DNA of 64,000 nucleotides from the NCBI RefSeq assembly GCF_006716785.1, contig NZ_VFPQ01000001.1:4464001-4528000 (forward strand), written 5' to 3'. Under the pieces are notes generated by a model that was not told the origin of the DNA, ran no database searches, and saw only the letters and a list, made by a program, of their open reading frames with translations. Positions within the stretch are counted from its first letter, which is position 1, and each line of letters starts with the position of its first letter. This document shows, piece after piece, positions 11,124 to 15,543 of this stretch. A program made the position numbers and the translations under genes. Source of the DNA: Thermopolyspora flexuosa. GTDB taxonomy: Bacteria; Actinomycetota; Actinomycetes; Streptosporangiales; Streptosporangiaceae.

Positions 11124-12017
11124 TCAGCCCGACGCCATGCGGGTGGCGGTCATCGTGGCGTAGACGATGATGTTGTCGGTGTAGTGGCCGGTGGTGCGGT
11201 CGTAGACGCCGCCGCAGGTGATCAGCCGCAGCTCGGCGGTGGCGGCGTCGCCGTACACCCGGTGGGTGGGGAACACGTCCTTGCCGGCCTGCTCCAGGCC
11301 GCCGACGGTGAACACGGCGACCGTGCCGTCCATGCGCACCACCTCGATCGTGTCGCCGTGGCGCAGCTCGTGCACCCGGCTGAACACGGCGCTGCCGGTC
11401 CGGGTGTCCTTGTGGCCGAGCAGCACGGCCGGGCCCGCCTGGCCCGCGGTGGGGCCGTACCGGTACCAGCCGACGAGGTTCGGGTTGTTCACCGGCGGCA
11501 CCTGGATCACGCCCCGGCGGTCGAGGCCCACCGAGCGGATCGGCGCGTTCACCCCGATCTTGGGGATGATCAGCCGTTTCGGCGTGGAGGGCTGGAGCGG
11601 CGGGGCCGGGGGCAGGTTCGGCACCGGGGCCGCCGCGTCCGGGGCGAGGGTGGTGAGCGCGCCGGCGTTCGCCGCGTCCGGGGTGGGCTGCACGCCCACG
11701 TTGAGCGAGGTACGGCCGTTGCCGGAGGCGAGGCCGTACTCCTCGGGGTTGCTCGCCATGAGCAGCAGCCCGGCGATCACGGTGACCACGCCCGCCAGTG
11801 CCGCGACGATGAGCACGACGCGCATGATCTGGTGCGCGCTCGGCCGGGGCGGTGGCGGGTCCGGCCGCGGCGGCACGGGCTGCGGCCAGGGCTGGATCGC
11901 CTGCGGCTGGGGGAAGGCCGGGTAGGCGGGCAGGCCGCCGTGCGGGTCACCGGGCACGCCGCCGGGTGGGGGCGCCTCGCCGGGGTATCCGCCGCCGTGG
12001 GTCGGTGGCATGCTCAC
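11124..12017 (-). CDS. Class F sortase (first cassette)
   Basis: 297 residues: a proline-rich cytoplasmic N-terminus (about 60 residues), one transmembrane helix ('VVLIVAALAGVVTVIAGLLL', residues about 68-87), an Ala/Pro-rich linker, then the sortase barrel. The catalytic histidine is in 'AVLLGHKDT', the cysteine in 'LRLITCGG', and the C-terminal arginine region is 'VYDRTTGHYTDNIIVYAT'. Sortases cleave a C-terminal sorting signal and attach the surface protein to peptidoglycan. GTG 12017 begins 12 nt after the stop of the surface-protein gene, so the two are co-transcribed and the neighbour is the likely substrate. A paralogous pair follows at 13.2-15.5 kb. Confidence 0.85.
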   Translation of the reverse strand: MSMPPTHGGGYPGEAPPPGGVPGDPHGGLPAYPAFPQPQAIQPWPQPVPPRPDPPPPRPSAHQIMRVVLIVAALAGVVTVIAGLLLMASNPEEYGLASGNGRTSLNVGVQPTPDAANAGALTTLAPDAAAPVPNLPPAPPLQPSTPKRLIIPKIGVNAPIRSVGLDRRGVIQVPPVNNPNLVGWYRYGPTAGQAGPAVLLGHKDTRTGSAVFSRVHELRHGDTIEVVRMDGTVAVFTVGGLEQAGKDVFPTHRVYGDAATAELRLITCGGVYDRTTGHYTDNIIVYATMTATRMASG

Positions 12018-12029
12018 CGGCGGCCCCGC

Positions 12030-12989
12030 TCACCCTCGGGCGAGACGTCGCCGCCGCAGCACGAGACCACCGGCCGCCGCGCCGAGCAGCGTGATCGATC
12101 CGGCGAGCACGAGCGTGCGCCCGTCGGGCCCGGCCTCGCCGCCTCCGCCGGTCGCGACGCCGCCCGCGGGCGTGCGCGCCACCTTCGAGCCGTTCGTCGG
12201 GTGCTCCGTCACGGTCACCTCCACGGTGTGGGTGGGTTGCCGGGACGGGCTCTGCGTGGTGGTCGGTGAGGTGGCGGCGCCGGGCGTGCCCACGGCCGCG
12301 GTGACCGCGGCGGGGACGGTGTTGCCGGTGACGGCGGGGGTGCACGTGTAGAGGTCGACTGCGGCGGCGCCGGGCTGGGCCACCCGGAGGGTGAACGCGC
12401 CCGCCTGCAGGACCAGTGACGTCGTGCCCGGCTCCGGGGTGACGGTCACCGTCGCGGTGGGGATGGGCGCGAGCGGTGACCCGGACGGCACCGGGGTGGT
12501 CACCGACGCCGTGGCCTCACCGGTGACCGACGACACCGCCGGCGGGGTCGGGGCGGCGCTCACCGACACCTGCGGCACGAGCTGGATCTGCGCGCCCGCG
12601 GGGATCTCCGCAGTGGCGCTGAACGACGGGTTCGCCCCCGCGATCACCACCGTGGCCGGGTACGCCGCCTGCGCGGTCGCCGACGTGCCGCCGGAGAGGT
12701 TGATCGTCACCTCGTGGGTGGTCTCACCGCCGGAGCCCGTACCGGTGCCCGGAGACGTGGTCGTTCCGGTGCTCGGGGATGTGGTGGTCCCGGTACCCGG
12801 ACTCGTCGTGGAGGTCTGGGTACCCGCCTCGGTGCCCGCGCCCGTACCGGTCCCGGCGGCGGTGCACGTGTAGGTGACGGTCCTGGTGTCCGCGCCGGCG
12901 GGCAGGCCGGTGAGGAGAGCGCCCATGCCGACGGTTCCGAGGGCAGCGGCGAGCAGGGCGAGGCGTCGCTGTGCCTGGGACATCCGCAC
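12030..12989 (-). CDS. Secreted surface protein with sortase-type C-terminal anchor
   Basis: 319 residues. The start is GTG 12989 (AGGAG 6 nt upstream). A Sec signal peptide ends near 'LPAGAD'; a Thr/Ser/Gly-rich segment ('TSTTSPGTGTTTSPSTGTTT') follows, then a domain with 'TCTAAG' and 'DLYTCTPAV' cysteines that may form one disulfide. The C-terminus has 'RTPAGGVATGGGG', a hydrophobic helix ('TLVLAGSITLLGAAAGGLVL') and 'RRRR', the layout of a cell-wall sorting signal, though without LPxTG. It shares the pattern TPxGxxATG with the second surface protein. It is the presumed substrate of the adjacent class F sortase; its own function is unknown. Confidence 0.75.
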   Translation of the reverse strand: MRMSQAQRRLALLAAALGTVGMGALLTGLPAGADTRTVTYTCTAAGTGTGAGTEAGTQTSTTSPGTGTTTSPSTGTTTSPGTGTGSGGETTHEVTINLSGGTSATAQAAYPATVVIAGANPSFSATAEIPAGAQIQLVPQVSVSAAPTPPAVSSVTGEATASVTTPVPSGSPLAPIPTATVTVTPEPGTTSLVLQAGAFTLRVAQPGAAAVDLYTCTPAVTGNTVPAAVTAAVGTPGAATSPTTTQSPSRQPTHTVEVTVTEHPTNGSKVARTPAGGVATGGGGEAGPDGRTLVLAGSITLLGAAAGGLVLRRRRLARG

Positions 12990-13215
12990 GTGTCTCTCCT
13001 AGCCTCTTTTCGCTTTTCCGACTCAACCTGTCAGATCACGTCAGGGCGCACCAGGATCGCAGTGCTTGGTCACGGTACGGTCGCGATCACATCGACATAC
13101 CGAACGGCTCGTGGCGAACCGTCACGTCACGGACGATCTACCTCATACCGCCCCCAGCCTAGAACGGCGGGCCCGGCGGGGCGGGGTGATCGCGCGAATC
13201 GGCCCGGATCGGCCC

Positions 13216-14034
13216 TCAGGCCGCCCGGGTGTTGGAGAGCGTGGCGTACACGATGATGTTGTCGCTGTAGCCGTGCCGCTTGCGGTCGTACACGCCGCCG
13301 CAGGTGATCAGGCGCAGCGCGGCCTCGGTGGTGTTGCCGTACACCCGCTCGGTGGGGAACGTCTTCTTGCTCACCTGCTCCACGCCGTCCACGGTGAACT
13401 CGGCCACGACCCCGTCGGAGCGGGTCACGTAGATCTTCTGGCCGCGCCTGATCTCGCGCAGCCGGGCGAACACGGCCGCGCCCTGCCGGTTGTTCACGTG
13501 GCCGAGGATGACGGCCGGGCCGAGCTCGCCGGGCACCGGGCCGTGGCGGTACCAGCCCGCGAGGTTGCGCCGGCTCAGCGGCGGCACCTGGATCTCGCCC
13601 GAGCGCTTCACGCCGAGCCGCATGAGCGGGGCCGACACGCCGAGGTCGGGGATGGCGATGCGGACCGGGCGCACCGTGCGGCCGGTGGTGACCGGCGGCA
13701 CCGGCGAGGCGGCGGGCGACGGCGGCGGCGCGGTCGGCGCGGCCTGGGTGAGCGGTACGCCCGGGCCGCCGGGGCCGACGGTCGGGGGCAGGTAGGAGCC
13801 GGTGCCGCCCACGTTCACCACGTTGAGCTCCTGCGGGGCCTCCGCCTCCAGGGTCGTCGTGGCGGGCGTGAGGAACGCGAGCAGACCGGCCATGATCGCG
13901 GCGATTCCGGCGAGGCAGGCGAGCAGCAGCACCGCGGGCAGGGCCGCCCGCGGCAGGACCCGGCCGGGCCGGTACGGCTGCGCGGGTGGGTGCGACGGCT
14001 GCGGCGGCCGGTATCCGTCCGGCTGGTTCGTCAT
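13216..14034 (-). CDS. Class F sortase (second cassette)
   Basis: 272 residues and clearly paralogous to the sortase at 11.1-12.0 kb. It has a short Pro-rich N-terminus, one transmembrane helix ('LPAVLLLACLAGIAAIMAGL'), a linker, and the sortase fold with the histidine in 'AVILGHVNN', the cysteine in 'LRLITCGG' and the arginine region 'YDRKRHGYSDNIIVYATL'. ATG 14034 stands behind GGGGGAGG, 15 nt after the stop of the surface-protein gene upstream, so the pair forms an operon. Sequence divergence in the substrate-facing loops between the two sortases suggests each serves its own partner, but this is inference. Confidence 0.85.
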   Translation of the reverse strand: MTNQPDGYRPPQPSHPPAQPYRPGRVLPRAALPAVLLLACLAGIAAIMAGLLAFLTPATTTLEAEAPQELNVVNVGGTGSYLPPTVGPGGPGVPLTQAAPTAPPPSPAASPVPPVTTGRTVRPVRIAIPDLGVSAPLMRLGVKRSGEIQVPPLSRRNLAGWYRHGPVPGELGPAVILGHVNNRQGAAVFARLREIRRGQKIYVTRSDGVVAEFTVDGVEQVSKKTFPTERVYGNTTEAALRLITCGGVYDRKRHGYSDNIIVYATLSNTRAA

Positions 14035-14049
14035 CGTCGCCTCCCCCGC

Positions 14050-15543
14050 TCAGCTCGTCGGACCGGGACGGTCGCCCGCGTGTGCGGCGCGGCGCCTGCG
14101 CAGCGCGAGCCCACCGGCGAAACCGCCGCCGAGCAGCAGAGTGCCGAGCGCCACGAGCGCGCCGGGGGACGGCCCGGCGGCGGGCGCCTCACCGGTCGCC
14201 GCCGCGCCGACCGGGGTGATCCGTACCTGCGGGCTCGCGGTCACGGTCGCGGTGACCGTCTGGGTGGGCCGCGGCGAGCCGGACACCGTGGTGGTCACCA
14301 GCACCTGGTTCGGCGTCGGGGTGCTTCCCGCGGTCGGGGTGGTACCGCCGGTCGGGGTGGTACCGCCGGTCGGGGTGGCGCTCCCGCTCGGCGTGGCGCT
14401 CGTGCTCGGGGTGCCGCCACCGCCGTTGTCGCCGTTCCCGTTGTCCCCGTTACCGTCGTCGCCGTTCCCGTTGCCGTTGCTCCCGGTCGGCGAAGGCTCC
14501 TCCGGTTCGGTGGGCTGCTCGCTCGGGTCACCCGGCGTGCCGTCGGTGACCGTGATCGGGATGAGCGGCACGTTCTCCGGCGGCTTGCACACGGTCCGGT
14601 ACGGCGAGGCCGCCGAGTTGTCGGCGGTGGCGGCGCGCACGCGGAAGGCGTCCACCCGGGCGTACTTGCCCTCGATGGTGTTCTTGACGGTCAGGGTGTA
14701 CTTGCCGTACGGCAGGCCGTCGATCGCGGTGAACGTCTCGCGCAGCCGCGGCTCGGCCGCGGCGTCCCAGTAGGCGTCGTGGACCTGGCGGTACTCCACC
14801 GGGGGATAGCCGTCGTCCACGGTGAGCTCGAACCGGCTCATGTCGACGTTCTTCATGCCGATCAGGTCGACGCCGGTGCCGACGAAGGTGAACCGGGCCG
14901 TGTCCCCCTGCCTGGAGGTCTGCTGCAGGCTCCCGTTGATCGGCGTCTCGCCCCCGGCCCAGGGTCCGCTGTCGGCGCTCCAGGCGCCGTCGTACTCGAC
15001 GGAGAAGTCGCCCGCGTCGTCGAACCTGTCGTCCCAGACCGACTCGGCGGGGGCGAGGTCAATGACGAGCGAACCGATGCGGAGCGCGCCGGTCCCCGGA
15101 TTGGAGGCGATCACCTGGCCGTTGGCGACGGCACCGAGTGGCAGGTTATCCGGCTGCCGCAGCCGCTCGGCGTCGTAGAACTCGGTGCCCGTGGCGTCGA
15201 TCGTGCCGCGCCCGGTCCACACTCCGGTCGCGTAGACGCGCCCGGTGACGGCGAGATGGCCGCCCTTGTCGAGCTTGCGGTCGTCGTACGGGTCGGTCAC
15301 CTTCAGCGGTGACTGCACGCCGAGCTGCCACTGCACCACGAGCGGCTGGCCGACCGCCGGCTCCCGGGACGACACCGAGATGTTGACCGCGACGGTGCCG
15401 CCGGGCGCGAGCGGTCCTCTGCAGGTGAAGTAGTACGGGCCCTCGGCGTGGGCCGGGGACGCGGGCAGCCCGGCGACGGCGCCCGCTCCGACTCCCAGCG
15501 CGAGGACCGTCGCGATCTTGCGCAGCCGCACACTCCAGCGCAT
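14050..15543 (-). CDS. Secreted surface protein with Pro/Thr/Gly stalk and sortase-type anchor
   Basis: 497 residues. A signal peptide ends near 'ASPAHA'. An N-terminal beta domain (about 30-140) is followed by a jelly-roll-like region (about 160-310, 'FTFVGTGVDLIGMKN', 'YGKYTLTVKNTIEGKYARV') that resembles carbohydrate-binding modules. A low-complexity stalk ('GNGNGDDGNGDNGNGDN', then repeated 'PTGGTTPTGGTT' coded by a tandem repeat near 14327-14376) leads to 'TPVGAAATGEA', a transmembrane helix and 'RRRR'. This is the architecture of a wall-anchored protein presenting a binding domain on a stalk. The ligand is unknown. It heads a two-gene operon with the sortase and is divergent from the acyl-CoA dehydrogenase gene. 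Confidence 0.75.
   Translation of the reverse strand: MRWSVRLRKIATVLALGVGAGAVAGLPASPAHAEGPYYFTCRGPLAPGGTVAVNISVSSREPAVGQPLVVQWQLGVQSPLKVTDPYDDRKLDKGGHLAVTGRVYATGVWTGRGTIDATGTEFYDAERLRQPDNLPLGAVANGQVIASNPGTGALRIGSLVIDLAPAESVWDDRFDDAGDFSVEYDGAWSADSGPWAGGETPINGSLQQTSRQGDTARFTFVGTGVDLIGMKNVDMSRFELTVDDGYPPVEYRQVHDAYWDAAAEPRLRETFTAIDGLPYGKYTLTVKNTIEGKYARVDAFRVRAATADNSAASPYRTVCKPPENVPLIPITVTDGTPGDPSEQPTEPEEPSPTGSNGNGNGDDGNGDNGNGDNGGGGTPSTSATPSGSATPTGGTTPTGGTTPTAGSTPTPNQVLVTTTVSGSPRPTQTVTATVTASPQVRITPVGAAATGEAPAAGPSPGALVALGTLLLGGGFAGGLALRRRRAAHAGDRPGPTS

Follow-up and report, generated by a model that had tools for sequence, protein, structure and literature searches.

Within a 64,000-nt stretch of the Thermopolyspora flexuosa genome (NCBI RefSeq assembly GCF_006716785.1, contig NZ_VFPQ01000001.1, positions 4,464,001 to 4,528,000; hereafter the window, numbered from its first nucleotide), two surface-protein genes are each followed by the gene of a class F sortase. 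These two substrate-sortase pairs, cassettes A and B, very probably constitute paralogous, dedicated wall-display systems, in which each sortase would cut its partner between the T and the G of a C-terminal motif and would link it to peptidoglycan. With less assurance, and at slightly short of even confidence, we put forward a broader proposal: that actinobacterial class F sortases have a code of their own, the eight-residue signal P-x-G-x-[A/V]-x-[T/A]-G, cut before the final G and read by a His-Cys-Asn active site; that private sub-codes (often TG-E in type A, TGGGG-E/D-x-G-P-D-G-R in type B) co-evolved with each paralogue; that this can be the only code of an organism, as here; and that the signal is repeated inside some ectodomains.

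Organization of the two cassettes

Both cassettes lie on the minus strand, and in each of them the substrate gene precedes its own sortase gene. The substrate A gene (14050..15543) encodes a 497 aa protein made of a signal peptide, a two-Cys beta-sandwich, a jelly roll of carbohydrate-binding type, a Gly/Asn/Thr/Pro stalk and a sorting tail. It is followed after 15 nt by the gene of sortase A (13216..14034), a class F enzyme of 272 aa with an N-terminal membrane segment and the putative catalytic residues His179, Cys245 and Asn259. The substrate B gene (12030..12989) encodes a 319 aa protein with a signal peptide, a two-Cys beta-sandwich, Thr/Ser-rich segments and a sorting tail, and is separated by 12 nt from the gene of sortase B (11124..12017), a class F enzyme of 297 aa. 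The Sec-like signal peptides of both substrates were called by eye. An earlier reading of the DNA, made from sequence only, had described two class F sortase-substrate cassettes with gaps of 12-15 nt, at the same positions; these positions and the scores against the class F model given below agree with that description.

The same reading had noted that both substrates end in TPxGxxATG, a helix and four arginines, as can be read directly in the translated sequences. Substrate A terminates in RITPVGAAATGE...ALVALGTLLLGGGFAGGLALRRRRAAH... and substrate B in RTPAGGVATGGGGEAGPDGRTLVLAGSITLLGAAAGGLVLRRRRLARG. The predicted sorting motif of substrate A, TPVGAAATG (14191..14217, minus strand), is supported by its sequence and by the motif statistics, and precedes a hydrophobic helix and RRRR (14089..14160, minus strand). 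That of substrate B, TPAGGVATG (12147..12173, minus strand), is supported by its sequence and by its score against the NCBIfam model NF058571; the corresponding helix and RRRR are found at 12045..12116 (minus strand). In peptide form, the predicted signals of sortase A and sortase B are RITPVGAAATGEAP and ARTPAGGVATGGGG, respectively.

A direct repeat of 300 nt (73%) between the two sortase genes fits their paralogy. The remaining DNA repeats at the locus were taken as GC-rich or low-complexity matches, and a search of the locus for sigma-70-type promoters and terminators found none.

Class F sortases with a predicted His-Cys-Asn active site

Sortases A and B scored 208.4 and 206 bits, respectively, against the NCBIfam class F model NF033748 (cut-off 166), and both also match Pfam Sortase. 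A sequence search of the PDB with sortase A gave no match; a profile built from seven sortases retrieved two distant sortases, with E values of 0.0009 and 0.009.

In an alignment of 156 class F sortases, the catalytic Cys is invariant and the His is present in 154 sequences. The position usually occupied by Arg holds Asn in 148 of the 156, Arg in seven and Ala in one. Among the 56 sortases of a held-out set (see below), His was present in 54, the two missing residues being alignment gaps, and Cys and Asn in all 56. As judged from these alignments, the active site is His-Cys-Asn. Replacement of the Arg by Asn has already been reported for class F sortases of actinobacteria (PMC6998099, citing Malik and Kim 2019).

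Conservation of the sorting signal

We compared the C-termini of proteins encoded next to class F sortases in the T. flexuosa genome itself and in three further sets. The order set comprised 72 class F sortases (loci L021-L079) and is non-random, consisting of best matches and close relatives. The phylum set comprised 77 places outside the T. flexuosa genome, with 78 ORF hits including a 32-bit fragment in L147; class F sortases were present in 29 of the 149 genomes of the phylum draw. The held-out class set comprised 56 sortase places among those listed, picked before their neighbours were seen, 35 of which come from a single, presumably Streptomyces-like, family. Neighbours were defined as upstream same-strand ORFs whose C-terminus has a helix and basic residues, the motif itself not being used. 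Such genes were found for 5/6 sortases of the T. flexuosa genome, 64/72 of the order set, 51/78 of the phylum set and 38/56 of the held-out set. The motif was then searched within the 45 residues preceding the helix and counts were compared with those from shuffled tails; tails were considered distinct according to their last 45 residues (33 distinct tails in the held-out set). Clearly spurious neighbour ORFs (L028, L046, L071 and L212) were kept in the counts, and the weak match L080 was excluded.

The sequence-only reading had proposed that a shared, non-LPxTG signal is conserved beside class F sortases, to be checked by aligning neighbour C-termini across Streptosporangiales. The literal TPxGxxATG is present in 2/5 tails of the T. 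flexuosa genome (shuffle mean 0.00, maximum 1), in 10/63 of the order, and in none of the 51 phylum and 38 held-out tails. As a general motif it is thus ruled out beyond the order. A relaxed form, P.G.[AVIMP].[TA]G (hereafter T1), devised after the order and phylum sets had been seen, bears the idea out: it occurs in 4/5, 53/63 and 27/51 distinct tails of the T. flexuosa genome, the order and the phylum, respectively (shuffle means 0.06, 0.70 and 0.61). The prediction for the held-out set was fixed in writing before testing, and T1 was found in 26/38 of its tails (shuffle mean 0.45, maximum 3) and in 21/33 distinct ones. The narrower P.G[GA]..[TA]G matched 51/63 distinct tails of the order (shuffle mean 0.53) and 23/51 of the phylum (0.50), and just 11/38 in the held-out set. 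The residues mostly conserved are P, the two G, T/A and, between the first G and T/A, a small or aliphatic residue.

LPxTG-like motifs ([LNSPIV]P.T[GAN]) were detected in a single tail of the order (1/63) and of the phylum (1/51), fewer than the shuffle means of 4.93 and 2.57, and in none of the 38 held-out tails. The LPxTG-anchor model TIGR01167 gave no match to substrates A and B at E values up to 10. An LPxTG or LAxTG reading of the substrate tails is ruled out by their sequence and by the tail counts.

Co-divergence of sortases and tails

The tails of the two cassettes fall into two types: A tails often continue as TG-E, also as TG-[VG], and B tails as TGGGG-[ED]-x-G-P-D-[GA]-R. These types were mapped on a tree of 77 sortases, one of 78 having been left out as too short; tails were labelled B when G[PA]D[GA]R follows the motif, and A by a loose pattern. 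All 22 sortases with a B-tail neighbour form one clade (SH-aLRT 99), and 26/27 A-labelled sortases fall in the group beside it (support 85), in a tree that was computed quickly, has long branches and is rooted at its midpoint.

Among 29 near relatives (L050-L078), for which limited stretches were available, two sortases were found in 17 loci and one in 12. Counting the window, 15 loci carry both cassettes with readable tails. In 29/30 named loci searched, the A cassette adjoins the same acyl-CoA dehydrogenase gene; the exception is the distant L079. These data suggest an ancient tandem duplication maintained by vertical inheritance. In four Acrocarpospora loci (L055, L061, L064 and L077), an extra B-like substrate gene, lacking a sortase of its own, is located between the A and B cassettes.

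Sortases and sorting tails in the T. flexuosa genome

Six sortase genes, all of class F, are present in the genome, which measures 5.77 Mb and is 99.99% complete. A Pfam Sortase search retrieved the same six and no other at E values up to 0.001, and a search for class E sortases found none. Class E was found in 107/121 genomes of the order; of the 14 without it, 11 carry class F. Weak hits of LPXTG-anchor models did not all give a tail, and none of the tails shown from them contains LPxTG.

The tails beside class F sortases in this genome carry TPVGAAATG, TPAGGVATG, TPKGWARTG and TPRGGVETG, and one has a divergent form, PHAGGGG. An orphan gene (L015:1483-2274(-), C1 about 930594) encodes one further tail, the sixth, which is of B type (RTPVGSVATGGGGEAGPDAR), together with a Tyr-x-Cys domain; the closest class F sortase gene is 132 kb away. 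Sortase B may act on this orphan substrate in trans. The sixth class F sortase (L009:5310-6404(+)) has no tail-bearing neighbour; the ORF upstream of it encodes a His/Lys-rich protein of 186 aa without a C-terminal helix.

The substrate beside another class F sortase (L011:5082-5732(+), C1 about 1153081-1153731) carries a repeated sorting motif: PRGGVDTG occurs three times between poly-Asp stretches, in addition to the terminal PRGGVETG, and NF058571 matches four stretches of the protein. Multiple copies were also observed, using T1, in L117 (four copies) and in L128, L210, L219 and L221 (two each).

Domains of the two substrates

The cargo of the two substrates was analysed by profile comparison and on AlphaFold models (mean pLDDT 77.0 for substrate A and 76.7 for substrate B). 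Profiles of A and B homologues aligned by hhalign over 126 N-terminal columns with a probability of 97.6 and an E value of 4e-12. The shared domain displays a Tyr/Phe-x-Cys motif near its start and a distant second Cys. In substrate A it corresponds to a predicted N-terminal beta-sandwich at aa 34-165 (15049..15444, minus strand), recognised as homologous to substrate B by hhalign and from the model. In substrate B, the predicted beta-sandwich spans aa 33-234 (12288..12893, minus strand), includes a low-confidence Thr/Gly/Ser insert, and is delimited from the model and from invariant residues; Tyr13, Cys15 and Cys189 of the fragment aligned are invariant in 24 sequences.

Substrate A contains a second predicted domain at aa 166-304 (14632..15048, minus strand), a CE2_N/CBM35-like jelly roll assigned by VIA-align on the model and by Pfam CE2_N matches in relatives. 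Model residues 133-271 resemble jelly rolls of the carbohydrate esterase 2 N-terminal and CBM35 types, with Z scores of about 11 to 14, the best match being 3nqh (Z 13.8, rmsd 2.3, 114 residues aligned). CE2_N (PF17996) was detected in 6/19 members scanned at E up to 0.05 (best E 1.8e-5), the window protein itself giving no match. A PDB sequence search with substrate A produced weak hits only, none better than E 0.25, which we took as chance, and scans of Pfam and NCBIfam revealed no enzyme domain in this protein. Since the jelly roll is of carbohydrate-binding type, substrate A may, on the basis of its model, bind a glycan, either of its own wall or of an external polysaccharide.

For substrate B, only weak fold matches were obtained (best 3lso_A, Z 8.8, rmsd 4.4, 152 residues aligned), with none at E below 0.001 using Foldseek, and we therefore claim no family. 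A possible DUF6801 link, from a match in 1/19 members scanned (E 0.001), is no more than a hint. The jelly-roll-like domain that the sequence-only reading had assigned to substrate A is thus recovered in the predicted model. The divergence it had described between the two substrates holds for this additional domain and not for the two-Cys domain, which they share; unrelated cargo in A and B is ruled out by the profile comparison.

Proposed mechanism and alternative explanations

We propose that the substrates are exported via their signal peptides and would then be kept in the membrane by the C-terminal helix and arginines. The downstream class F sortase would read the extended signal P-x-G-x-[A/V]-x-T-G, from P7 to P1'. 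Its Cys, presumably activated by the His, with Asn in place of Arg, would cut between T and G, and the cut protein would be passed to the amino group of a peptidoglycan precursor, lipid II, probably the free amino group of meso-diaminopimelate. The whole route would be the standard sortase route, the signal alone being different. The kept upstream residues, P at P7 and G at P5, suggest from their conservation a longer binding groove than for LPXTG.

Several observations weigh against this scheme. Sequences within each set are related, so that motif counts are not independent events. No upstream tail gene was detected for 1/6 sortases of the T. flexuosa genome, 8/72 of the order, 27/78 of the phylum and 18/56 of the held-out set; some of these sortases lie at contig edges, or may have their substrates elsewhere. 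T1 is absent from 24/51 phylum tails, partly because divergent class F sortases adjoin a variant that is shorter by one residue. This variant, P..V.[TA]G, was found in 1/63 order tails, in 0/38 held-out tails and in 15/51 phylum tails (shuffle mean 0.74); for 11 of these 15, the adjoining sortase scores below 150 bits. More divergent, lower-scoring class F sortases thus tend to adjoin it. The single class F sortase assayed, from C. acnes, is said to read LPXTG in the part of PMC13257024 available. In Actinoplanes missouriensis, deletion of all four srtF genes left the phenotype unchanged, according to the available text of PMC13251363, a result that also fits a non-essential display function. 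Finally, pairing is not strictly one to one, as the orphan B-type tail of L015 is encoded in the same genome, and across all cassettes of the order the most similar sortase comes with the most similar tail in 662/915 comparisons, about half being expected by chance. As far as these comparisons of sequences indicate, the pairing of sortases and tails is real and not absolute.

Incomplete pairing leaves considerable, though clearly lesser, room for promiscuous sortases, the six class F enzymes sharing one substrate pool and the cassettes reflecting co-regulation instead of private codes. The core motif is common to the tails, the orphan substrate of L015 has no sortase of its own, the overall congruence is limited, and the Actinoplanes authors allowed for overlapping substrates (PMC13251363, available text). 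However, A and B tails track the sortase clades (22/22 for B, 26/27 for A).

It is improbable that the substrates are simply held in the membrane by their tails, with a permanent anchor formed by helix and arginines and with the adjacent sortases acting on other targets. Permanent C-tail anchors are also built of a helix and RRRR, the cleavage proposed here is deduced, and actinobacterial C-tail proteins exist (PMC10924467, available text). Nevertheless, in class F neighbours the motif is kept just before the helix, and signal type tracks sortase clade. Among 119 other helix-tail ORFs at the loci, T1 was found in 11 and P.G[GA]..[TA]G in nine. Nine of the 11 T1-bearing ORFs are A-type, B-type or extra substrates located in cassette loci or beside a class F sortase, and the other two are a second tail in the class F locus L023 and the orphan of L015. 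This control is not clean: the nine P.G[GA]..[TA]G matches are cassette members or extra substrates at class F loci, and therefore count toward the association and not as background. Polymerisation of the substrates into pilus-like fibres, instead of anchoring of single molecules, is very improbable: class C pilin loci also have a dedicated sortase gene adjoining the substrate gene, and both substrates contain beta-sandwich domains, but each sortase has one substrate and the class F scores are far above those of class C (19 bits only for sortase A, cut-off 160).

If dedicated display by cassettes A and B and the broader code are correct, motif repeats in ectodomains could allow a substrate to be cut or linked at several positions. 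Actinobacteria are rich in class F sortases, with up to nine per genome among the matches listed, and the physiological roles of these enzymes are stated as unknown in the available text of PMC13251363. Substrate searches limited to LPXTG-type pentapeptides, as in that text, miss proteins of the present kind, and a motif that predicts partners offers a concrete way to find class F sortase substrates. A sortase with Asn for Arg, reading a signal with Gly at P4, might also provide an orthogonal ligation enzyme.

Comparison with known systems

The cassettes are not a new kind of system: the sorting code they illustrate has been poorly described so far, a database already names part of it, and a paper of 2026 foreshadowed it. 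The NCBIfam model NF058571, 'GVDTG sorting domain' (GVDTG_CTERM), is an independent description of part of the tail signal. In the 149 genomes, 37 matches to it were obtained with E values of 0.001 or less; a class F sortase is encoded no more than 1.5 kb away for 26 of these, and for 10/11 of those scoring at least 29 bits. Substrate B is a marginal match: against a cut-off of 29 bits, it scored 25.6 when searched as a protein and 30.2 when the genome was searched. Substrate A gave no match even at E 10. GVDTG_CTERM has the same C-terminal plan (P-x-G-G-V-D-T-G, helix, basic tail) and also adjoins class F sortases, but the signal described here is wider: its second G may be replaced by A, S, H, W or T, its T by A, and its V by A, I, M or P. 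This kind of signal is therefore already known to curators, whereas NF058571 covers neither the A type nor the wider consensus.

In A. missouriensis, two of the four class F sortases (SrtF1-4) adjoin genes encoding a signal peptide, a helix and a basic tail without a pentapeptide motif; these neighbours of srtF1 and srtF4 were proposed as possible substrates (PMC13251363, available text). The arrangement is that of both cassettes, a class F sortase beside a tail-bearing gene, but the available text gives no motif for these neighbours. The open-licence literature searched yielded no report of a class F sortase motif of this form. The sequence-only reading had considered the sorting signal uncharacterised; this was too strong in view of NF058571, which describes part of it, and of the Actinoplanes proposal.

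The class E system (SrtE1/SrtE2, chaplins, SspA; LAXTG) is similar in that its sortases are actinobacterial and that its signal lacks the LPXTG proline and ends in TG. In class E, the signal retains a Leu as its P4 residue, and the catalytic site of SrtE1 includes an Arg (PMC5148588, available text), whereas the tails described here mostly have G/A at P4 and keep an upstream Pro, and their sortases have Asn instead of Arg, in a genome where class E was not found. As for the cargo, residues 166-304 of substrate A have the same predicted fold as CE2_N and CBM35 domains, but this jelly roll stands beside a two-Cys beta-sandwich, on a stalk predicted to be displayed at the wall.

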